Shown here piece by piece: positions 3,502 through 19,347 of a stretch of DNA of 34,111 bases. The DNA comes from Gemmatimonadota bacterium. GTDB lineage: Bacteria > Gemmatimonadota > Gemmatimonadetes > Gemmatimonadales > Gemmatimonadaceae. Positions within the stretch are counted from its first letter, which is position 1, and the number at the start of each line of letters is the position of its first letter. Below the pieces are notes generated by a model. It was given only the letters and a program-made list of their open reading frames with translations. It did not search any database and was not told the DNA's origin. The position numbers were made by a program, and so were the translations under genes. The stretch is taken from positions 1 through 34,111 of the forward strand of contig QHVE01000022.1 in the NCBI GenBank assembly GCA_003223455.1, given 5' to 3'.

Positions 3502-3566
3502 GTCGTTTCTCCAGCGGGCTGGTTGTGTCGGTGACTCCGACACGTGCACCGCGTTACGACGTCAGC

Positions 3567-3593
3567 AACATACCGGCCGTTCCGGCGTATGTT
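3567..3593. promoter_or_regulatory. Inverted repeat AACATAC-N13-GTATGTT, possible operator
   Basis: Two perfect 7-base arms separated by 13 bases (about 20 bp centre to centre, two helical turns) lie in the 197-bp divergent region between the barrel gene start (3501) and the M13 peptidase start (3699). The spacer is itself partly symmetrical (CGGCC..CCGG). Spacing and position fit a dimeric regulator's operator; a leader hairpin is the alternative. No regulator is identified. Confidence 0.4.
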
Positions 3594-3698
3594 ATTCGAC
3601 CCGCTGCATCGTGCTCAGCAGGCAGAGCAGGATCGTCCCAGCAGCGTGCGGCCCCATCGGTGATCTTCCTCATCCGTCCACTCGGAGCACCCCCCGTG

Positions 3699-5744
3699 AT
3701 GTCCGTTCCCTCGTCCGCGGCGACCGTCGCGCGCGCGATCGCCTCGGCGTTCGTGCTCGTCTCCGTCGCAACCACCGCCTCAGCGCAGTCGACACGTCCC
3801 TCGGGCATCGACACGAGCACCTTCGACCGCAGCGTCCGCCCACAGGACGATCTCTTCCGGTTCGTCAACGGCGGCTGGCTCAAGCGGACTCCGATCCCGA
3901 GCGATGCCGCGCGCTGGGGCGCGTTCGACGAGCTCGACGAACGCAGCCGTGAGGCGATGCGCACGATCCTCGAGGACGCCGCGCGTTCGAACGCGCCCGC
4001 CGGGTCGGAGGAGCGGAAGGTCGGCGACCTCTACGCCAGCTTCCTGGATTCGGCGCGTGTCGAAGCGCTCGGCGTCACGCCGCTCAAGGGTGAGCTCGAC
4101 CGCATCGCCGCGCTGAAGAGCTCGGCCGAGCTTCCTGCGGTCTTTGCGCATCTCGCGCGCATCGGTGTCGCGCGTCCATTCGGCGCTGGTGTCGGCTCCG
4201 ATCCGAAGAAGTCGTCGACGAACGCCGTCCTCATCAGCCAGTCGGGACTCACGATGCCCGACCGCGACTACTATCTGATCAACGACGCACGCATGAGCGC
4301 GGTGCGGCAGTCGTATCAGTCCTATCTGAGCCAGCTGTTCACGCTCGCCGCGCTCCCCGATCCCGCCGGCGCCGCGTCACGCGTGCTCGCGCTCGAGACC
4401 GCGATCGCCGGCAAGCAGTGGGAGCGCGCCCGCAACCGCGACCGCAACGCGATCTACAATCCGATGACCGTGGCGGCGCTCGCCGCGTCATCGCCGCACT
4501 TCGACTGGAAGGGCTACCTCAGCTCCGCCGGCCTCGGCGCGGCGACCGGTGTCATCGTCAACCAGCCCGACTACCTCGTGGCGCTCGACTCGATCGTCAC
4601 CGCGACGCCGATCGGCACCTGGCGCGAGTACCTCGCCGCCAAGCTGCTCGACGCGTACGCGTCGGAGCTCTCGTCGCCCTTCGTGCAGGCGCGGTTCGAC
4701 TTCCGCGGCAAGGTGCTGAACGGGCAGCAGGCGCAACGCGCGCGTTGGAAGCGTGGCGTCGCGGAGGTCGAGGGCGCACTCGGCGAGCCCGCCGGCAAGC
4801 TGTACGTCGCCCGCAACTTCAAGCCGGAGGCGAAGGCGCGCATCGACGAGCTGATTCGCAACCTCCGCGAGGCATATCGCATCGGCATCGACAGCCTCGA
4901 GTGGATGACGCCAGCCACCAAGGCGCGCGCGAAGGAGAAGCTCGCCCAGTTCACCGTGAAGATCGGCTACCCCGACAAGTGGCGCGACTACTCCTCGCTC
5001 GCCATTCGTCGCGACGATCTGGTCGGCGACGTCATGCGCGCCCGCGCCTGGGCCTACGACGACATGCTCGCTCAGTACGGCAAGCCGGTCGACCGGACGC
5101 GCTGGCTGATGACCCCGCAGACGGTGAACGCGTACTATCAGTCGACGAACAACGAGATCGTCTTTCCCGCCGCCATCCTGCAGCCGCCGTTCTTCGATCC
5201 CAAGGCCGACGACGCGGTCAACTACGGTGCGATCGGCGCCGTCATCGGCCACGAGATTGGCCACGGCTTCGACGATCAGGGCCGCAAATCGGACGGGGCG
5301 GGGAACCTGAGCGACTGGTGGTCCGCCGACGATGCAAAGGCGTTCGAAGAGCGCGCCACCCGACTCGGTGCGCAGTTCGAGGTCCTCACCCCCCTCGAGG
5401 GCGCGAAGGTCAACCCGAAGCTCACGATGGGTGAGAACATCGGCGACCTCAGCGGCCTCGCCCAGGCGTATCGCGCCTACCGCATCTCGTTGAAGGGAAA
5501 GGAGGCGCCGGTGATCGACGGCTTCACCGGCGACCAGCGCTTCTTCATCGGCTTCGCCCAGATCTGGCGCGCCAACAACCGGGAGGCCTCGCTCCGTCAG
5601 CAGCTCCTGAGCGATCCGCACTCCCCGGGCGAATACCGGGCGAACGTGCCGGTCGCGAACAGCGAGGCGTTCCAGCGGGCGTTCGATCTGAAGCCCGGCG
5701 ACAAGCTGTATCGGGCGCCGGGGGAGAGGGTGCGGATCTGGTAA
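3699..5744 (+). CDS. Secreted M13-family zinc metallopeptidase (neprilysin/PepO-like)
   Basis: The 681-residue protein starts at ATG 3699, chosen because it puts a signal peptide at the N-terminus (cut near ASA|Q, residue 29); an in-frame ATG at 3525 would add 58 residues without signal character. The M13 hallmarks are in order: N-terminal helical domain beginning D-x-S-V-R-P-Q-D-D-L-F-R-F-V-N-G-x-W-L, the substrate motif V-N-A-Y-Y, the zinc site HEIGH (His518, Glu519, His522) followed by G-F-D-D-Q-G-R, and the third ligand Glu579 in GENIGDLSGL. The extreme C-terminus R-V-R-I-W keeps the family Trp. M13 enzymes cleave short peptides on the amino side of hydrophobic residues; the signal peptide implies periplasmic or extracellular peptide degradation. 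Length is normal. It stands alone and is followed by a 28-bp perfect hairpin. Confidence 0.95.
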   Translation: MSVPSSAATVARAIASAFVLVSVATTASAQSTRPSGIDTSTFDRSVRPQDDLFRFVNGGWLKRTPIPSDAARWGAFDELDERSREAMRTILEDAARSNAPAGSEERKVGDLYASFLDSARVEALGVTPLKGELDRIAALKSSAELPAVFAHLARIGVARPFGAGVGSDPKKSSTNAVLISQSGLTMPDRDYYLINDARMSAVRQSYQSYLSQLFTLAALPDPAGAASRVLALETAIAGKQWERARNRDRNAIYNPMTVAALAASSPHFDWKGYLSSAGLGAATGVIVNQPDYLVALDSIVTATPIGTWREYLAAKLLDAYASELSSPFVQARFDFRGKVLNGQQAQRARWKRGVAEVEGALGEPAGKLYVARNFKPEAKARIDELIRNLREAYRIGIDSLEWMTPATKARAKEKLAQFTVKIGYPDKWRDYSSLAIRRDDLVGDVMRARAWAYDDMLAQYGKPVDRTRWLMTPQTVNAYYQSTNNEIVFPAAILQPPFFDPKADDAVNYGAIGAVIGHEIGHGFDDQGRKSDGAGNLSDWWSADDAKAFEERATRLGAQFEVLTPLEGAKVNPKLTMGENIGDLSGLAQAYRAYRISLKGKEAPVIDGFTGDQRFFIGFAQIWRANNREASLRQQLLSDPHSPGEYRANVPVANSEAFQRAFDLKPGDKLYRAPGERVRIW

Positions 5745-5770
5745 GGGCGGTCGGTGGTTGAGTGGTGAGT

Positions 5771-5800
5771 GGTTCGTGGTTCGTGGTTCGTGGTTCGTGG
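5771..5800. repeat. Tandem word repeat (GGTTCGT)x4
   Basis: Four consecutive 7-base copies of GGTTCGT lead straight into the left arm of the next hairpin; the last copy is part of the stem. The same arrangement of heptad words feeding a core hairpin is seen at 485-549 with a different word. Confidence 0.85.
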
Positions 5801-5853
5801 TTTTAACGGCCTCGGGAGGCGATTGCTTCCCGAGGCCGTTAAAACCACGAACC
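5792..5853. terminator. Very long perfect hairpin after the M13 gene, GGCCTCGGGA core (site 4)
   Basis: Arms 5792-5817 and 5828-5853 are exactly complementary over 26 bases, extending to 28 with the next two pairs, around a 10-base loop. Inside is AACGGCCTCGGGA; outside is the site-specific GGTTCGTGGTTTT. It follows the M13 peptidase stop by about 50 bases and precedes the S1 protease gene, so it should separate the two transcription units. Confidence 0.75.
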
Positions 5854-5908
5854 ACCAAACCACAAACCGTCCTCCGTAAACCACCAAACCACAAACCGTC
5901 GTCCGTAA
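5851..5908. repeat. 29-bp tandem duplication to the right of the hairpin
   Basis: Positions 5851-5879 and 5880-5908 are the same 29-base unit (beginning ACCACCAAACCACAAACC) with a single C-to-G difference at base 22. The unit starts inside the right arm of the hairpin, so the duplication appears to have copied arm sequence outward. It lies in the leader or promoter zone of the S1 protease gene. Confidence 0.85.
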
Positions 5909-6029
5909 ACAAATGATTGACAGCGCCGACGCGCAGCCGTAGAAATCCGCATCGATGTCGATGCCGGCATCCGCCCATCCACGCCCCCCTCGAAAGCGTG
6001 GACTCACCGGTGCTTCTGCCCCACATCCT

Positions 6030-6869
6030 ATGAAATTCCGTCAGCTCCCTGCGCTCGCGATCGCGTCGCTCACTCTCGCGGCCTGCTCCGAGCCATCCCT
6101 CCCGACGTCGACGCTCGCGCCGTCGGCCCCCAGCACGATCGTCAACGGCACGTATACCGGCTCATCGTTCTCCAGCGTTGGCGCCCTCCTGTTCGACTTC
6201 GACAAGAACGGCGTGATCAACGGCGACGACCTGTTCTGCTCGGGCAGCCTGATCTCGCCAACAGTGTTCCTCACGGCGGCCCACTGCGTCGCGTCCTCGG
6301 ACACGCCTCCTGGCTCCCAGTGGTACGTGTCGTTCGCGCCTGACCTCTACGCGAATGACATCGAGGTCATCAGGGCCGACGCCTACTACTACGATCCGCA
6401 GTACGGCCACGATCAGGCGAACCTGCACGACCTCGCGGTGATCATCCTCCCCGCGAATTCGACGAGAGGGCTGACGCCCTATTCGCTGCCGACGCGCGGG
6501 GAGCTCGACCGCCTGTCGGCGAAGGGCGGCCTCAAGGACGCGATCTTCTACAACGTCGGCTACGGCACCTCGGCGACGCGCTCCGGCAAGCCGCGATTCC
6601 CCTACGACGGGAGGCGCTACGTGTCGGAATCCGAGTTCATGGCCCTTCGGCCGTACTGGCTCGGTCTGCTCATGAACACGCATGCCACCGGCCTTGGCGG
6701 CGACTGCTACGGTGACTCCGGCGGTCCGAAGCTACTCGAGAGCAACCCCGGCGTCGTCTACGCCACCGTCACGACCGGCGACGCCAACTGCCGCGCCACG
6801 AGCTGGGACTACCGCACGGACACGGACGCCGCTCGCGCGTTTCTCGGGAGGTTCGTGACGCTTCCGTAG
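6030..6869 (+). CDS. S1 (trypsin-like) serine protease lipoprotein with an EF-hand-like loop
   Basis: The 279-residue protein starts at ATG 6030, which places the lipobox LAAC with Cys19 correctly; an in-frame ATG at 5955 would hide it. A trypsin-type mature start I-V-N-G (37-40) is followed by the catalytic triad His85 (TAAHC), Asp134 (H-D-L-A-V) and Ser230 (GDSGGP). Unusually, residues 56-67 read D-F-D-K-N-G-V-I-N-G-D-D, matching an EF-hand or dockerin calcium loop (acidic or Asn at 1, 3, 5, 12; Gly at 6; Ile at 8), placed between the mature N-terminus and the His motif. Cysteines near His and Ser fit the usual disulfides. The product is probably an outer-membrane or surface-anchored protease. 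It converges on the FecR-type gene, with a hairpin between them. Confidence 0.9.
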   Translation: MKFRQLPALAIASLTLAACSEPSLPTSTLAPSAPSTIVNGTYTGSSFSSVGALLFDFDKNGVINGDDLFCSGSLISPTVFLTAAHCVASSDTPPGSQWYVSFAPDLYANDIEVIRADAYYYDPQYGHDQANLHDLAVIILPANSTRGLTPYSLPTRGELDRLSAKGGLKDAIFYNVGYGTSATRSGKPRFPYDGRRYVSESEFMALRPYWLGLLMNTHATGLGGDCYGDSGGPKLLESNPGVVYATVTTGDANCRATSWDYRTDTDAARAFLGRFVTLP

Positions 6870-6886
6870 GTGACGTAGAACGGTGT

Positions 6887-6946
6887 AACGGATTAACGGC
6901 CGGCCTCGGGAAGCTCCTGCGTCCCGAGGCCGGCCGTTAAACCGTT
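6887..6946. terminator. Convergent-gene hairpin, GGCCTCGGGA core (site 5)
   Basis: Arms 6887-6911 and 6922-6946 pair over 25 bases with one mismatch and a 10-base loop. The core GGCCTCGGGA is shared with the other sites; the outer arm is the site-specific word AACGGATTAACGGCC. To the right the words ACCGTTAAACGG and TTACCGTCTAACCG continue the theme. It sits between the S1 protease stop (6869) and the FecR-type stop (6976), so it probably terminates transcription from both sides. Confidence 0.7.
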
Positions 6947-6975
6947 AAACGGTCTTACCGTCTAACCGCTATCCG

Positions 6976-8253
6976 CTACTTCTTCCCCTTCTTCGCCGCC
7001 TCCGGCTTCGCCGTCGGTTCCGTGAACGCCATGTTCTGCCCCACGTAGCCGAACTGCAGACCCGTGCTCGCCTCGATGCCGCGGATCGCCTGGCGGGTCG
7101 AATCGAGCGACGCGCGGAAGCTCGCCTTCCGTTCCATCAGCTTCGGCTGCGGGACGAGGATCGTGAGGCCGTACCACTTCTTCATGAGGTTGAGCACCTG
7201 GTTGAGCGGCTTGTCGTTCACGACGAGCATGCCCGAACGCCACGAGTCGGCTTCTTCCTTCTGCGCCGCCGTCGCCTGCCGCACGACGCTGTCCTTGGCG
7301 ATGACCGCGCCACCCGCTGGGACGTCGGTCAGATCCTTCGGCTTGCCGACCTTCACCGAGCCCTCCGAGACGACCACCGTCGTCTCGATCGTGTTCTCGT
7401 CGACCTTCACCGTGAACGCCGTGCCCGTCGCCACGACGGCGACGGTCCCCGCGTTCACCCGGAACGGCTTCTCCATTCCCTTGGTCACGGTGAACTCGCC
7501 AGCTCCCTTGAGCTTCACGACTCGCAGCTCCGGGCCGAACAGCTTCGGCACCGTGAGCTCGGACTCGGGCGCCAGGCGCACCTTCGTACCGTCGTCCAGC
7601 GTGACCGTGCCCATCCTCGCGAACGTCGTGGCGATGGGCTTCACGTCGGGCGCGTTGAGCGCGCGGGCGAATTTTTCGTTTTCGCTCACACGGCCCATGC
7701 CGTAAGCGGCTCCCAACACAGCCGCGAGGGCCACGGCGAAGATGCCGAGCACGATCCAGAGTGGCTTCCCTTGCTCCGAGTGCTTGATATGCTCGGCGGC
7801 TTCGTGCCGCGAGTGCCGCGCCAGCTCTTCGAGCGCCTTCGGACTGTGCCCCTCGCCGTGCAGGGCGTGCATGATGTGCAGCCACGCCTCTTCCTGCGTC
7901 TCCTCGCGCAACTCGTGCGCGTCGGCGCGGCTGCCCCCCGCGAGACGGTGCGCACCCGCGCGGCGGCTCAGCGCGCGCGCGGCCGCGTGATGGATGTCCT
8001 CGACGAGGAACTGATGCACGTCGGCGGGCGTCTGGAACCGCGCTCGCGCGTCCCATGCGCGCACGAACGCGCCCTCGACGACCTTCCCGACGAGTGCGCG
8101 TGCGTCGGGCCCGAGATCGGTGCGCGCTTCTTCCGTCAGCGCGGGGTATTCCTCGAGGAAGAAACGACGCAGCGTCTCCTCGTCTGCAAGAGCGACGGCA
8201 GGCGACCCAGCGTCGGGTGCATTGCCGTCACGTGCATCGAACGTGGTCGACAT
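6976..8253 (-). CDS. FecR-type transmembrane regulator with a sigma-region-2-like cytoplasmic domain
   Basis: The protein has 425 residues; GAGAGG precedes the ATG (complement of 8251-8253). Residues about 27-100 resemble an ECF sigma factor region 2: F-F-L-E-E-Y-P-A-L, then V-V-E-G-A-F-V-R-A-W-D-A-R-A-R-F, F-L-V-E-D-I-H-H-A-A-A-R-A-L-S-R-R. A His/Glu-rich linker (110-160) follows, then one membrane segment (about 164-187). The periplasmic FecR domain (about 205-305) contains L-D-D-G-T-K-V-R-L-A-P-E-S-E-L, A-T-G-T-A-F and V-S-E-G-S-V-K-V. The FecR C-terminal/STN-like domain (about 338-410) has V-V-N-D-K-P-L-N-Q-V-L-N. A Lys-rich tail ends the protein. Classical FecR proteins carry a short anti-sigma helix at the N-terminus and relay a TonB-receptor signal to a separate ECF sigma factor. 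No separate sigma gene or receptor is adjacent here. Confidence 0.85.
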   Translation of the reverse strand: MSTTFDARDGNAPDAGSPAVALADEETLRRFFLEEYPALTEEARTDLGPDARALVGKVVEGAFVRAWDARARFQTPADVHQFLVEDIHHAAARALSRRAGAHRLAGGSRADAHELREETQEEAWLHIMHALHGEGHSPKALEELARHSRHEAAEHIKHSEQGKPLWIVLGIFAVALAAVLGAAYGMGRVSENEKFARALNAPDVKPIATTFARMGTVTLDDGTKVRLAPESELTVPKLFGPELRVVKLKGAGEFTVTKGMEKPFRVNAGTVAVVATGTAFTVKVDENTIETTVVVSEGSVKVGKPKDLTDVPAGGAVIAKDSVVRQATAAQKEEADSWRSGMLVVNDKPLNQVLNLMKKWYGLTILVPQPKLMERKASFRASLDSTRQAIRGIEASTGLQFGYVGQNMAFTEPTAKPEAAKKGKK

Positions 8254-8384
8254 GAGGCCTCTCTGTCTGGAGTTACGACCGATCGGATAGCGCGAATATG
8301 AGGGGGCACTCCGGCGATGTCACGGGCGGGGAGAACATCTGGCTCGCATGGAGCGCGCGAAGCTCGCGGACTCCACGGCGAGCT

Positions 8385-8397
8385 CGAGTAATACTCG
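8385..8397. promoter_or_regulatory. Small palindrome CGAGTA-A-TACTCG
   Basis: A perfect 6+1+6 palindrome lies in the divergent region between the FecR-type gene and the M24 peptidase gene. It may be one of two operator-like sites there, the other being at 8452-8474. Evidence is only the symmetry and position. Confidence 0.25.
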
Positions 8398-8451
8398 TCC
8401 TCTCGCCTGTCGTCGCCCCGCGCGACGTGCGAGATTTCGAGCACTCTATCT

Positions 8452-8474
8452 ATGTCGTTGCCCGGCAACGACAT
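8452..8474. promoter_or_regulatory. Perfect 23-bp palindrome upstream of the M24 peptidase
   Basis: Eleven-base arms (ATGTCGTTGCC and GGCAACGACAT) flank a single central C, ending 20 bases before the M24 start codon. A one-base centre cannot form a normal RNA loop without losing pairs, so a DNA operator for a dimeric regulator is favoured over a hairpin. Its position, between the promoter zone and the start codon, would suit repression. No regulator is identified. Confidence 0.5.
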
Positions 8475-8494
8475 GTCCCCAGACCGACCGTCAT

Positions 8495-9970
8495 ATGCCC
8501 GCACTGGCCAGGAGTCCGCTCCTTCTCGCCGCCCTCCTCGTATCGCTCATCGCTGCAAACCCCGCGCTCGCTCAGATCCCCGCCGGTGAATACGCCGCCC
8601 GGCGTGACTCGCTCGCCGCGCGCGTGCACAACGGCGTCGTCGTCGCGTTCGGCGGCCGCACGCCCGTCAGCGACTTCGGTCCGTTCCATCAGCTTCCCTC
8701 CTTTCACTACCTCACGAACTTCCACGAGCCCGATGCGGCGTTCGTGATGGTCGTGCGCGATGGCCGCGGCACGAGCACGCTGTTCCTCACGCCGATCGCT
8801 CCGCGGCGCGCGTTCTACTATGGAAGGCGGCCCGACTCGGCCGAAGTGGTGCGCAGCTTCGGCATGCGCGCGCGCTCCTTCGCCGCGCTCGGCGGCGTCG
8901 TCGATTCGCTCGCCCGCGAGAACCTGCCCTTCTTCGTGCTCGACGACTTCGAGGACGCCGACTTCGCCACGCAGGACTCCCTCACGCGCGGCAAGCAGTT
9001 CGTGCGCGCGCTCAAGGCGCACCACGCCTCGGGGATCGAGATCCGCGACGCGCATCCGATCGTCGACGAGCTCCGCGCACGGAAGAGTCCCGCCGAGATG
9101 GCCCTCCTGCGCCGCGCCGCCGAGATCAGCACGGAAGGGCATCGTGCGGCGATGACGATCCCCGAGCCCACCAAGGAGTACGAGATCCAGGCCGCCCTCG
9201 AGGGCACCTTCCTCCGACTCGGCGGCGCTCGACCGTCCTACGGCTCCATCGTCGGCGGTGGCGTGCACGGTACCCAGCTCCACTACATGCGCGATCGCGG
9301 CGACGTGAAGCCGGGCGACGTCGTCGTGATGGATGCCGCCACCGAGTACGAGGGCTACGCGGCCGACATCACGCGCACGCTCCCCGTGAGCGGGAAGTTC
9401 ACGGCCGCGCAGCGCGCGATCTATCAGCTCGTGCGCGACGCGCAGGCCGCCGCCGAGCGCAACTCCAAGCCCGGCATGTCCTCCGTCGCGGCGCAGGACT
9501 CGTCGTTCGACATCCGCGCCAGGGGGCTGGCGACGCTCGGCCTCGTCGAGAGCGCGGACGCCCAGATCGATCTTCCCTGGCCGGCCGACTGCACCGCTAC
9601 CCCGCGCGCCTGCAAGCAGGCGATGTTCTGGATGATCCACGGCATCTCGCACGGCATCGGCCTCGCCGTCCACGATCCGGCGCAGTTCTACGCCAAGGAC
9701 CATTTGTTCAAGCAGGGCGACGCCTTCACGATCGAGCCCGGGATCTACGTCAGCACCACGGCGCTGGACGCGCTGCCCGACACTCCACGGAATCGTGCCT
9801 TCATCGCCAAGGTGAAGCCGGTCGTCCAGCGCTACGAGAACACCGGGGTGCGCATCGAGGACGACTACCTGATCACGGAAAAGGGGCTCGAGCGCATCAG
9901 CCTCGCGCCGCGCGAGATCGAGGAAGTCGAGGCGCTGATGCAGAAGCGTCCGCCGCGCGCCGTGCCGTGA
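8495..9970 (+). CDS. Secreted Xaa-Pro aminopeptidase (M24 family)
   Basis: The 491-residue protein starts at ATG 8495, giving a Sec signal peptide cut near ALA|Q (residue 26); the longer in-frame start at 8348 lacks a signal at its N-terminus. The N-terminal half is the creatinase-N-like domain. The C-terminal pita-bread domain has all five dinuclear metal ligands: Asp280 (V-V-M-D-A), Asp291 (A-A-D-I-T-R), His386 (H-G-I-S-H-G-I-G), Glu414 (T-I-E-P-G-I-Y) and Glu455 (R-I-E-D-D). Family members remove N-terminal residues before proline. Export suggests periplasmic peptide scavenging, in line with the M13 and S1 enzymes nearby. Its TGA overlaps the GTG start of the aminotransferase (GTGA), so the two are probably translationally coupled. 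Confidence 0.95.
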   Translation: MPALARSPLLLAALLVSLIAANPALAQIPAGEYAARRDSLAARVHNGVVVAFGGRTPVSDFGPFHQLPSFHYLTNFHEPDAAFVMVVRDGRGTSTLFLTPIAPRRAFYYGRRPDSAEVVRSFGMRARSFAALGGVVDSLARENLPFFVLDDFEDADFATQDSLTRGKQFVRALKAHHASGIEIRDAHPIVDELRARKSPAEMALLRRAAEISTEGHRAAMTIPEPTKEYEIQAALEGTFLRLGGARPSYGSIVGGGVHGTQLHYMRDRGDVKPGDVVVMDAATEYEGYAADITRTLPVSGKFTAAQRAIYQLVRDAQAAAERNSKPGMSSVAAQDSSFDIRARGLATLGLVESADAQIDLPWPADCTATPRACKQAMFWMIHGISHGIGLAVHDPAQFYAKDHLFKQGDAFTIEPGIYVSTTALDALPDTPRNRAFIAKVKPVVQRYENTGVRIEDDYLITEKGLERISLAPREIEEVEALMQKRPPRAVP

Positions 9971-14490: not shown

Positions 14491-14528
14491 GAATGGCCTC
14501 GGGAGCTGGAAGCTTCCCAAGGCCGTTC
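14491..14528. terminator. Convergent-gene hairpin, GGCCTCGGGA-type core (site 6, degenerate)
   Basis: GAATGGCCTCGGGAGCT pairs with AGCTTCCCAAGGCCGTTC, with two mismatched or wobble positions and a very short loop. It lies between the RND pump stop (14400) and the DUF4239 stop (14553), a shared terminator position. It is the least perfect member of the core family. Confidence 0.6.
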
Positions 14529-14552
14529 GTGTTGCGGGCCCCGGACCCCCGA

Positions 14553-15332
14553 CTACTTCATCGACTCCCGCAAATCCACCAGCGTCCGATCGATCGCGTC
14601 CACGCGAACTCGCCCCATCCGCGGATACTCGAGCTCCGCGACGACGTACGTGGCGCTGGCGATCGTGCCGGCCACGCCGACCATGTACAGCCAGTTCCGC
14701 TTCTCGGCGGTCGCGATCGCGTAGCCCACGAACACGGCGCCGATCAGCGCCGCGATCGCCAGCAGCACGTAGATCAGTCGCGGCGGATGGATCGCGCGCG
14801 CCAGGCGCTCCTTCTCGACGGCGCCGAACAGCTCGTTCATGCTGGGCAGGAGCAGCATGCGCGCCTTGTCACCGGCCGGCGTCGAGCAGACCTCGACGGC
14901 CTTCGCCCACAGGTCGTTCTGCGCGCGCGTGACCGCCTCGGGCTGGCGGATCGTCGCCGCGTCGGCGACCGACGTGCTCGCGTAGGAGGCGATGAGCGCG
15001 TCGATGTAGCGCCGCATCGCGTCGCGCACGGGCGGCTGGAGCTCGGCCGGCAGCATGTCGATGCGCTGCCATGTCGTGCCGGCCACGTTCGTCGTCGCGC
15101 CGACGAGCTCGCGCCGGCTGTCGAACCGCGCCGCCGCGCCGTTGAAGGTGAAGCCGATCATCAGGGCCACCAGCGCGTACACCGATCCGTCCACCACGCC
15201 GACACCGGCGCGCGCACCCGGTACGTTCAGTCGGCGGACGCCGAGCCGACGACCAAGCTCGAGAAAGATCAGGAGCGCCACGAACATCCCGAGGGCCGGG
15301 ATTATCGGGAATGTGGCAGACGCAATGTGCAT
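14553..15332 (-). CDS. DUF4239 (bestrophin-like domain) membrane protein
   Basis: The 259-residue protein has membrane segments at about 7-27 and 50-66, a long amphipathic soluble region, and two more membrane segments near the C-terminus, ending in A-E-L-E-Y-P-R-M-G-R-V-R-V-D. The second segment with G-F-T-F-N-G-A-A-A-R-F-D and the late L-E-x-P-R-x-G motif are typical of DUF4239. That family is distantly likened to bestrophin anion channels, but its function is not established. It lies 60 bases downstream of the OprP-like porin gene on the same strand and could be the last gene of the aspA-ansB-porin transcript. The link to asparagine metabolism is not supported by anything in the protein itself. 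Confidence 0.85.
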   Translation of the reverse strand: MHIASATFPIIPALGMFVALLIFLELGRRLGVRRLNVPGARAGVGVVDGSVYALVALMIGFTFNGAAARFDSRRELVGATTNVAGTTWQRIDMLPAELQPPVRDAMRRYIDALIASYASTSVADAATIRQPEAVTRAQNDLWAKAVEVCSTPAGDKARMLLLPSMNELFGAVEKERLARAIHPPRLIYVLLAIAALIGAVFVGYAIATAEKRNWLYMVGVAGTIASATYVVAELEYPRMGRVRVDAIDRTLVDLRESMK

Positions 15333-15392
15333 GTGACGTGTCCTCGACTTCTGGGTTGCGTTGCTGCTGCGTCGCGATACGGTGGACGCTCT

Positions 15393-16787
15393 TCAATCCG
15401 TGGCGACGCTGAGCTTCGTGAACTGGAGCTGGAGGCGCGCCTGGAAGAACTCCGTCGTGGAATGCCCGCCGAATCGATCGAGGCCGCTGATGCCGTAGGT
15501 GAACTCGAGCCGGGCCTGGTCGTTGAGATGCCAGTTCACCATCGGCGTGACGCGCCAGAGCTTTCCACCGCTCAGGCTGTCCGCGGTCAGATTGATGTAC
15601 GAGACGCGGAGCACGGCCTCGAGGGCTCCCGGGCCGCCCTTGAACACCGGGCGCCGGGGCGAGACGGCCCTGAAGGTTCCGGACGGCGTGATGTAGGGAC
15701 GCGTCTCGCCCGTGACGATCCAGGAGACGAAGGCATCTCCGCCGTGAAAGACCGGATCGCCGGCCTGAGGCGACTTGGCCTGTTCGGCATAGTACTCGGT
15801 GCCGTAGAGCCATGGACCGTCGCGATAGTAGATCTCGAGGCCCGCGATCGTCCCCCGGCTGGCGGGGAACTTCCCGGTGTCGATGAAGCTCGTTGCCGCG
15901 AACACTTCCGGCTTCGACTTGAGCTGGAGCGTGTCGTGCTCGGGCTTGCCGACGTGCAGTCCGGCGCCGACGTGCCAGAGCGTCCCGGCGGTATCCGCAT
16001 CCATCCGCACATAGGCGAGCCGGCCGAGGACCTGGTGCTCGTAGTAGGAGAAAGACTCGCCCTCCGACAGGACGTTGGTGAAAAAGCCAAGGTTCCAGAG
16101 TACGTGCGCCTTCGGCACATAGCCCATCCACTTGATGCCGTCTGCCAGGAGCGGGATGGCCGCATCGGAGAAGGTGAATCGTTCCGACGTCCACCCGTCG
16201 TATCCGCTGAGCACGCGATTGAGGCTGAGCCCTTCCTTGAGGCGGCCGATCTGGAACTGGCTCGAGATCTCTGGAGCAGCGACGGAGATCATCGACAACC
16301 GGACCCTCCACTTCCACGCCGCCCAGTCGTACATGAGGCCTGTCTGCCATGTGATCGGCCGCTCGGTGCGCAGCGTTCCGAACAGCATGATGCGCGAATC
16401 TCGGATCTTTCCCTGCGGCTCCGCGTTGAAGTGCGCGGCGCTCATGGAATCCTGGTTGAAGCTCGCGTAGTCCGTGAGAACCGCCGCGCCCCAGAGAAGG
16501 GTCGTGAAGCCGAGATTGTACTCGTTCCAGTGGAGGACGAATTCGCTCGGCCATTTTTCCTTCGCCGCCTTCGTCGCACCGGCAGGGCCCGCGGCCGAAT
16601 CGGAGTCGGCGCGCGCCGCTCCGACCGAGGCCGCGGTGGCGACGAACGGATCGCGGCTCGCCGGAGCGAGCCGCTGCCCGTGCGCCGGTCGCGCCCACCA
16701 CAGGCATGACGCCAGCAGGAGGAGCGACTGGAGCAGGAGCGTTCCGACTGGGCACGGACGAACCGCGCCCGGTCGTTCAATACTCAT
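15393..16787 (-). CDS. OprO/OprP-like outer-membrane porin
   Basis: The 464-residue protein has a long signal peptide cut near AHG|Q (about residue 37), an acidic/Ala-rich linker, and a run of amphipathic strands with aromatic girdles. Motifs such as R-x-R-L-S, S-Q-F-Q-I-G-R-L-K-E-G and F-x-x-x-Y-x-x-G-L-x-x-x-x-W point to the phosphate-selective porin O/P family. Those proteins form trimers of 16-stranded barrels. The C-terminus ends K-L-S-V-A-T-D rather than Phe, which is atypical for a BAM substrate. The start overlaps the ansB stop by 11 bases, so the two are co-translated. Because it is coupled to asparaginase and aspartase, I infer uptake of anionic or amide nutrients (aspartate, asparagine) rather than phosphate alone. 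Specificity is unproven. Confidence 0.8.
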   Translation of the reverse strand: MSIERPGAVRPCPVGTLLLQSLLLLASCLWWARPAHGQRLAPASRDPFVATAASVGAARADSDSAAGPAGATKAAKEKWPSEFVLHWNEYNLGFTTLLWGAAVLTDYASFNQDSMSAAHFNAEPQGKIRDSRIMLFGTLRTERPITWQTGLMYDWAAWKWRVRLSMISVAAPEISSQFQIGRLKEGLSLNRVLSGYDGWTSERFTFSDAAIPLLADGIKWMGYVPKAHVLWNLGFFTNVLSEGESFSYYEHQVLGRLAYVRMDADTAGTLWHVGAGLHVGKPEHDTLQLKSKPEVFAATSFIDTGKFPASRGTIAGLEIYYRDGPWLYGTEYYAEQAKSPQAGDPVFHGGDAFVSWIVTGETRPYITPSGTFRAVSPRRPVFKGGPGALEAVLRVSYINLTADSLSGGKLWRVTPMVNWHLNDQARLEFTYGISGLDRFGGHSTTEFFQARLQLQFTKLSVATD

Positions 16788-17880
16788 CGAAGTACCGCTG
16801 AATCGTCTGGACGTCGGTCGTCTTGAGCAACGCCAGACGGAGGAGCACCCGCGCCTTCTGCGGGTTGAGCCCCAACGACGCCACGAAGCCTTCCTTGTCG
16901 TCGTTCACTTCAACGTTGCGCCCGACCTGGCCCGTCGCCACGCGTGACGAGCGCACGCAGACGATTCCCTTCTTCGCCACCGCGGCGAGCGCCTCGAGCG
17001 CGGGCTTCGTCATGTTGCCGTTGCCGACGCCGGCGATGATCAGCCCCTTCGCGCCAGCCGCCACGGCGGCGTTGATCAGGGCACCGTCCATGTTCTCGGT
17101 GGCCATGATGATGTCCACGCGCGGCAGCACCGTGTTCGCGTCGACCGAGAAATCGGACTCCTGGGTGTTCTTGCCGACCGGTCCGCGGTACCACTCCACG
17201 TCACCGTAGGCGACGGTCCCGAGGAGACCCGAGAGCGGAGACATGAAAGTCTGGACGGCCGTGGTGCTCGTCTTGGTGAGCGACGCCGCCCCGTGCACCC
17301 AGTCGTTCACCACCACCATCACGCCACGTCCACCCGCCTTCGCATCGGCCGCCACACCCACCGCGTTGTAGAAGTTGAGCGGGCCGTCCGCCGAGAGTGC
17401 GGTGGACGGACGCATCGACGCGGTGAGCACCACCGGCTTGCGCGATTTCACGACGAGGTTGAGGAAGTAGGCGGTCTCCTCGATCGTGTCCGTACCGTGC
17501 GTGATGACGACGGCGCTGACGTCGGGCTGCGCGACGAGCGCGTTGATGCGCGTCGCCAGCTTGAGCCAGACCACGTCGTTCATGTCCTGCGAGCCGATGT
17601 TGGAGATCTGCTCGCCGCTGAGGTGCGCCAGCTTCTTCGCCTGCGGCACCGCCGCGAGGAGCTGCTCCACGCCGACCTGACCGCTCGAGTAGCCGGCCTG
17701 GACGTCGCTCGCCGCAGCGCCCGCGATGGTGCCGCCCGTCGCGAGCACGACCACGTTGGGAAGCCCATTGTGATTCCCATTCGTCGGTTTGTTCTCCATC
17801 TGTGCGCCGGCGCTGCCGGCGAGAAACGCCATCGCGAGCGTGAGGCTCGCCGATCTCGAAAGCATGTGCCGTACTACCAT
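16777..17880 (-). CDS. ansB: Periplasmic L-asparaginase (type II)
   Basis: The 367-residue protein starts at ATG (complement of 17878-17880), with GGGAG about 6 bases upstream. A Sec signal (cut near AGA|Q, about residue 27) fits the periplasmic, high-affinity type II class. Both catalytic threonine motifs are intact: Thr51 in ATGGTIAG and Thr130-Asp131 in THGTDTIEET. The flexible-lid Tyr64, the substrate-binding N-I-G-S-Q-D-M-N-D and the active-site Lys in the L-T-K-T-S-T-T region are also present. The enzyme hydrolyses asparagine to aspartate and ammonia. It lies between aspA (63 bases upstream) and the porin (11-base overlap downstream). The aspartate it makes is the substrate of AspA, after transport into the cytoplasm. 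Confidence 0.95.
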   Translation of the reverse strand: MVVRHMLSRSASLTLAMAFLAGSAGAQMENKPTNGNHNGLPNVVVLATGGTIAGAAASDVQAGYSSGQVGVEQLLAAVPQAKKLAHLSGEQISNIGSQDMNDVVWLKLATRINALVAQPDVSAVVITHGTDTIEETAYFLNLVVKSRKPVVLTASMRPSTALSADGPLNFYNAVGVAADAKAGGRGVMVVVNDWVHGAASLTKTSTTAVQTFMSPLSGLLGTVAYGDVEWYRGPVGKNTQESDFSVDANTVLPRVDIIMATENMDGALINAAVAAGAKGLIIAGVGNGNMTKPALEALAAVAKKGIVCVRSSRVATGQVGRNVEVNDDKEGFVASLGLNPQKARVLLRLALLKTTDVQTIQRYFDEY

Positions 17881-17891
17881 GGAAAACTCCC

Positions 17892-17907
17892 GCTGTCTGT
17901 CGACAGC
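17892..17907. other. Small hairpin in the aspA-ansB gap
   Basis: GCTGTC-TGTC-GACAGC forms a 6-bp stem with a 4-base loop in the 63-base space between aspA and ansB. With no T-tract it may slow rather than stop transcription or stabilise the ansB message. Position and symmetry are the only evidence. Confidence 0.3.
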
Positions 17908-17943
17908 TCGATGGTGCGAGTTGTGGTCGTGCTCCGATCGCTC

Positions 17944-19347
<1,404 letters not shown>

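Follow-up and report, generated by a model that had tools for sequence, protein, structure and literature searches.

A gene on the minus strand of the window, the 34,111-nucleotide stretch of Gemmatimonadota DNA analysed here, encodes a FecR-type membrane protein whose cytoplasmic end is a region 2 of ECF sigma factors (sigma2) with its polymerase- and promoter-contacting residues replaced. The reading favoured here, to which we give an even chance from sequence comparisons, is that of a single-copy inner-membrane receptor in which a disarmed FecI-type sigma2 has replaced the FecR anti-sigma domain and which would act by sigma mimicry. A sigma factor and its antagonist are commonly seen as opposites. 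Here, a sigma piece forms the cytoplasmic end of the antagonist's receptor, and this disarmed piece is kept over 24 genera. A search of open-licence literature returned no membrane FecR receptor joined to a disarmed sigma2. The case also carries a warning for annotation, as Pfam names such proteins FecR alone.

Domain organization

The gene (6976..8253, minus strand) runs from an ATG at 8253 to a stop at 6976 and encodes 425 amino acids plus the stop. Its limits are supported by the alignment of 25 full-length orthologues. About 25 related genomes each have a single protein that aligns over the full length, and other matches cover the FecR part only. All features given below lie on the minus strand. 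The cytoplasmic part opens with the sigma region 2-like (pseudo-sigma2) domain (residues 21-104; 7942..8193), built of helices 25-47, 49-68, and 76-104. A short FecR-like helix (residues 117-133; 7855..7905), located by profile comparison and present as a helix in the model, and a juxtamembrane helix (residues 138-161; 7771..7842) with the near-invariant H155 follow. The membrane helix covers about residues 165-187 (7693..7761), with a hydropathy peak at 165-183 and a model helix at 165-199.

The periplasmic part shows the features of the FecR family. The FecR domain (residues 207-301; 7351..7635) is identified by Pfam (PF04773, 1.2e-12) and by fold. The FecR_C (STN-like) domain (residues 343-402; 7048..7227) is identified by PF16344 (2.8e-5) and by fold matches to PupR and the FecA signalling domain. 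In a Foldseek search with the full-length AlphaFold2 model, the periplasmic part matches PupR (6ovk) and BDI_1681 (4m0n) with TM-scores by target of 0.77-0.82. Family alignment places Gly277-Thr278 (7420..7425) at the known self-cleavage site of FecR and FoxR (PMC9249621). Gly-Thr occurs at this place in 49 of 86 family members, including the protein described here.

Several histidines are conserved in the cytoplasmic part between 7771 and 7950 of the window (residues 102-161): H102 (67/90), H132 (70/90), H150 (66/90), and H155 (86/87). From its sequence, this histidine-rich part is a conceivable metal- or haem-binding site.

The N-terminus is a sigma region 2

The domain at residues 21-104 is genuinely homologous to region 2 of ECF sigma factors. 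A family alignment of residues 20-106 matches a set of 30 ECF sigma factors with hhalign at E=1.6e-16 (probability 98.7%), and the family profile matches the genome's own FecI-type sigma factor at 6e-15. A profile search of PDB sequences yields four matches at E<=0.01, each of them an ECF sigma factor; a PDB search with the single sequence (phmmer) returns no match. The best PDB match of the family profile (3.7e-6) is chain C of 9n9q, where RpoE forms part of an RNA-guided transcription complex. In Pfam, Sigma70_r2 aligns to residues 59-99 of this sequence below threshold (0.021 with the whole protein, 0.0015 with the N-terminus alone). NCBIfam gives the same FecR-type picture as Pfam, plus three sub-threshold sigma families at the N-terminus, and the sigma model TIGR02985 is matched by 18 of 25 family members at E<=0.01.

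The predicted structure agrees with the profiles. AlphaFold2 models the three helices with a pLDDT of about 95 across residues 21-100, and in Foldseek the full-length model matches region 2 of sigmaE (4lup_A) over 85 columns at 2.7 A with a TM-score by target of 0.74. With the whole model as query, the E-value of this match is weak (0.12) at a given probability of 1.00, as expected because sigma2 makes up a fifth of the long query. The earlier note had described the N-terminus as similar to ECF sigma region 2 and had proposed two checks, both of which bear it out. The predicted fold is that of E. coli sigmaE region 2, not an unrelated helical bundle, and the profile searches do yield sigma matches.

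The anti-sigma domain is replaced and its following helix retained

Region 4 is missing, and residues 107-166 compare with ECF sigma factors at shuffle level (15 of 60 column shuffles score as well). The Pfam scan of this protein gives no Sigma70_r4 match. An early profile alignment had pointed to a concealed region 4 at residues 105-165, but its reference included two family members; the score fell to shuffle level once these were removed. The same residues 107-166 compare with ordinary FecR N-termini of the phylum at 19.1, above all 60 shuffles (maximum 13.2). The match to the FecR helix is short, with 16 columns aligning TVDEAWARITNALH in the family with DVDRAWSRVAARLD in ordinary FecR proteins. 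Helix 117-133 resembles the 'DVDxAWxxVxxRL' helix of ordinary FecR proteins, which comes after the helices of their anti-sigma domain by sequence inspection.

The anti-sigma domain DUF4880 has no Pfam match at E<=10 in this protein. Among four canonical FecR proteins from the phylum, DUF4880 is matched by two, both weakly; thus, Pfam alone is a weak test for this domain. Since only the following helix is common with FecR, sigma2 occupies the place of anti-sigma helices 1-3, and the helix after them stayed. By its location, helix 117-133 may be the equivalent of helix 4 in anti-sigma domains of class I. In class I anti-sigma factors, the fourth helix binds the polymerase-binding (core-binding) face of sigma2 (PMC7406223).

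The architecture outlined in the earlier note therefore holds throughout. Region 4 is missing, the usual FecR anti-sigma segment is replaced (DUF4880 and helices 1-3 are unmatched), and a membrane helix is followed by FecR and STN-like domains, on which Pfam and structure matches agree. The note's "built-in" sigma2 is better put as a sigma2 domain that replaced the anti-sigma domain.

Polymerase- and promoter-contacting residues are replaced

Family members (90) were compared position by position with 30 ECF factors, with RpoE added for numbering. The RpoE sequence served numbering only. Sigma70 numbers follow the alignment and the general picture of region 2.2 contacts. At the position of sigma70 D403, K or R is found in 82 of 90 members and an acidic residue in none, whereas all 30 ECF factors have D or E. 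In this protein, the residue is K57, which lies in the altered core-binding motif VGKVVEG (residues 55-61; 8071..8091), located by alignment to the A-E-D-x-V-Q-E/D of ECF factors. The neighboring positions have changed as well. The preceding E of the DAED motif (24/30 ECF factors) is P in 47 of 90 members and never acidic, the Q406 position (Q in 30/30) is mostly E, and the E407 position (E or D in 29/30) is mostly small or neutral. The family thus lacks the acidic DAED-type motif. In sigma factors, this motif contacts the beta' clamp (PMC8103513, PMC8999054).

Promoter-reading positions follow the same trend. The -10-reading Asn, at the RpoE N80 position, is kept in 2 of 90 members vs. 27 of 30 ECF factors, and the RpoE R76 position is D or E in 54 of 90 members vs. 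R in 20 of 30 ECF factors. Scaffold residues are kept (W67 in 84/90, R70 in 88/90), and hydrophobic clamp-facing positions are partly kept (F32, F63, and W67). The replaced residues are conserved across genera. NG86 dN/dS, summed over 11 close pairs with low dS and noisy single-pair values, is 0.123 for sigma2 and 0.145 for the periplasmic part. Conserved replacements under purifying selection indicate a maintained pseudo-sigma rather than a working or a decaying sigma factor. The residues of the domain suggest that core binding has been lost.

Phylogenetic distribution and origin

The search for homologues of the same architecture, also proposed in the earlier note, is positive. By the profile of the cytoplasmic part, a family member is found in 91 of 179 Gemmatimonadaceae genomes and in 24 of 35 genera, essentially as one copy each. 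No comparable score occurs outside Gemmatimonadaceae in a 298-genome sample of the phylum. A scan of the contig catalogue with an eight-member profile returned Gemmatimonadota records only, with peptide patterns that are narrow and search other phyla less sensitively; the catalogue labels close relatives as Gemmatimonadaceae or Gemmatimonadetes MAGs. The FecR part lies in the same open frame in 86 of 90 non-redundant members and is missing from the remaining four, which are short frames.

In the tree, the N-terminal domains group into one clade (support 100/100) on a long stem. A set of 25 good genomes yields 21 best sigma matches outside the family, of which 18 adjoin a FecR gene on visual comparison of positions, and the best match in the protein's own genome is the FecI of a FecI/FecR/TonB-receptor locus. 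As judged by these matches, the pseudo-sigma2 is derived from a FecI-type sigma factor. This origin would most simply be explained by one fusion, early in the history of the group, of a FecI-type sigma2 to a FecR protein whose anti-sigma domain it replaced.

Two further genomes stand out. In one genome of the genus to which G030 belongs, an in-frame TAG splits the sigma2 part from the rest of the gene at 718-2046 of locus L120 (G108:C14:148000-151500). The resulting open reading frames, 718-1245 and 1249-2046, may represent a broken gene, an assembly error, or a split protein. Another Gemmatimonadaceae genome (G016, 2.9 Mb) has 30 FecR-type matches and no member of the pseudo-sigma2 family; ordinary FecR proteins are expanded there.

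Genomic context

Across 26 loci compared, no neighbor is conserved beyond close relatives, and there is no conserved operon or linked sigma gene. Nor is a FecI sigma, TonB-dependent transducer, or target operon conserved beside the gene in these loci. Thus, context does not tie the gene to a sigma/anti-sigma pair. An ordinary system is present elsewhere in the same genome, on contig C115, where a divergent FecI-like sigma, a FecR, and a TonB-dependent receptor lie together (locus L072, G000:C115:28000-40000, positions 4782-9128). The genome also encodes an M50 protease. Among 25 good genomes, eight have the protein as their sole FecR-domain protein, including a single-contig genome rated 100% complete. 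With no receptor conserved alongside, this indicates that the protein depends neither on an ordinary FecR nor on linkage to a receptor. Its partner, therefore, cannot always be an ordinary FecR and would be another anti-sigma factor or the protein itself.

Within the window, three peptidase genes surround the receptor gene: an M13 peptidase (3525-5744), a neighboring trypsin-like peptidase (5955-6869), and a divergent neighbor encoding an M24/aminopeptidase P (8348-9970). This cluster is not conserved in relatives. Two further frames in the window, 14493-16709 (+) and 17293-19341 (+), of 738 and 682 amino acids, have no Pfam match at E<=1e-5.

Possible modes of action

In the favored reading, the periplasmic FecR/FecR_C part would respond to a signal or to a partner in the outer membrane. 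Transmission across the membrane may involve a change in conformation or proteolysis of the Prc/RseP type, as known for FecR and IutY, and would alter the availability of the cytoplasmic pseudo-sigma2. Release by proteolysis is possible, to judge from the membrane helix, the conserved FecR periplasmic part, the M50 protease, and the Gly-Thr site. The pseudo-sigma2 would then take up an anti-sigma factor, or its sigma2-binding helix, as PhyR does with NepR, and this uptake would free or restrain a real sigma factor. At rest, the protein's own retained FecR helix (117-133) may cap the pseudo-sigma2. Its residues suggest that the pseudo-sigma2 does not itself form a holoenzyme; it probably signals by binding another protein and not by direct gene switching. 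A more specific version, offered tentatively, is a transmembrane sigma mimic in which the disarmed sigma2 undergoes partner switching with an anti-sigma factor and would relay a periplasmic or outer-membrane signal by mimicry, without destruction of the anti-sigma factor. Such a protein would be a membrane-bound counterpart of PhyR that evolved separately, in a different phylum, from a FecI/FecR pair. If the protein does work as a mimic, PhyR is not the only origin of sigma mimicry, and such mimicry can be coupled to a membrane receptor.

Other readings keep the action within the protein. The pseudo-sigma2 could pack on its own helix 117-133 or dimerise the receptor, with no anti-sigma factor involved and with output from the membrane part or from a different surface, for instance the end of helix 76-104 that is rich in Arg and His. 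This is unlikely but has several points in its favor: the helix was kept from FecR and is modelled confidently, as if packed (AlphaFold2 block mean pLDDT 94-95), the protein can be its genome's only FecR and has no conserved partner gene, and the top covarying pairs include R97-W124. However, these pairs may reflect clades, and covariation between helix 117-133 and the sigma2 positions expected to contact it is not significant (p=0.19). A fused sigma remnant with a structural role only, drifting, would fit the lost functional residues and the absence of the gene from about half of Gemmatimonadaceae genomes. A dN/dS of about 0.12, a constraint no weaker than that on the periplasmic domain, and the conservation of the replaced residues themselves across genera make such a relic quite unlikely.

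Two readings retain contact with the transcription machinery. The earlier note had suggested that the domain could act as a decoy, bound to core RNA polymerase or in competition with a real sigma factor, and the true sigma2 fold with its clamp-facing hydrophobics would suit that role. This suggestion fares poorly, because the key acidic contact is reversed to K or R in 82 of 90 members, the other clamp acids are replaced, and the Asn and Arg that read the -10 element have been lost. ECF43 factors without the DAED motif are inactive until phosphorylated (PMC8999054). A decoy is accordingly rated very improbable. Slighter still is the chance of an IutY-like pro-sigma, from which proteolysis would release a working sigma subunit that directs transcription. 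The plan of the protein (sigma part, membrane helix, FecR) is that of IutY, which is activated by Prc and RseP (PMC8999054, PMC9249621), and an M50 protease is at hand. Against this, region 4 is absent, the region 2.2 and -10-reading residues are replaced, and no TonB receptor or target operon is conserved alongside in the 26 loci.

Comparison with known systems

FecR, PupR, and FoxR share with the family the membrane helix, the FecR and FecR_C/STN-like domains, the helix that follows the anti-sigma domain, and, in many members, the Gly-Thr pair. They differ from it in having the three-helix part of the anti-sigma domain (DUF4880) where the family has pseudo-sigma2, and the family's gene is an orphan. 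Sigma factors that depart from the usual plan provide partial parallels. EcfP and its ECF43 relatives also have a region 2.2 without the acidic motif. However, EcfP is a soluble sigma factor with neutral residues there and regains the charge by phosphorylation (PMC8103513, PMC8999054), whereas the family has a basic motif and no region 4. In the split sigma factor of Bacillus, SigO/RsoA, a sigma region likewise resides in its own protein. SigO and RsoA jointly start transcription (PMC8103513), whereas the family has no such partner or core-binding surface.

PhyR, an alphaproteobacterial anti-anti-sigma factor, uses a degenerate sigma domain as a mimic that draws NepR off EcfG (PMC8103513). As in the family, its sigma-like domain has degenerate core- and promoter-binding regions and is under selection. 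However, PhyR is a response regulator with an ECF-like part made of sigma2 and sigma4 and a receiver domain, and it binds NepR (PMC8103513). The family has sigma2 alone, tethered to the membrane and joined to a FecR sensor, and the Pfam scan of this protein contains no receiver domain. IutY of Pseudomonas putida (ECF243) also combines a sigma-derived cytoplasmic part, which replaces the anti-sigma domain, with one membrane helix and a FecR periplasmic part. Unlike the family, which lacks sigma4 and a linked receptor and has replaced sigma2 contact residues, IutY retains an intact sigma2 (8-84) and sigma4 (100-164) and is the working sigma factor of the aerobactin/IutA system (PMC9249621). IutY and PhyR are the closest known systems, and the family is neither.
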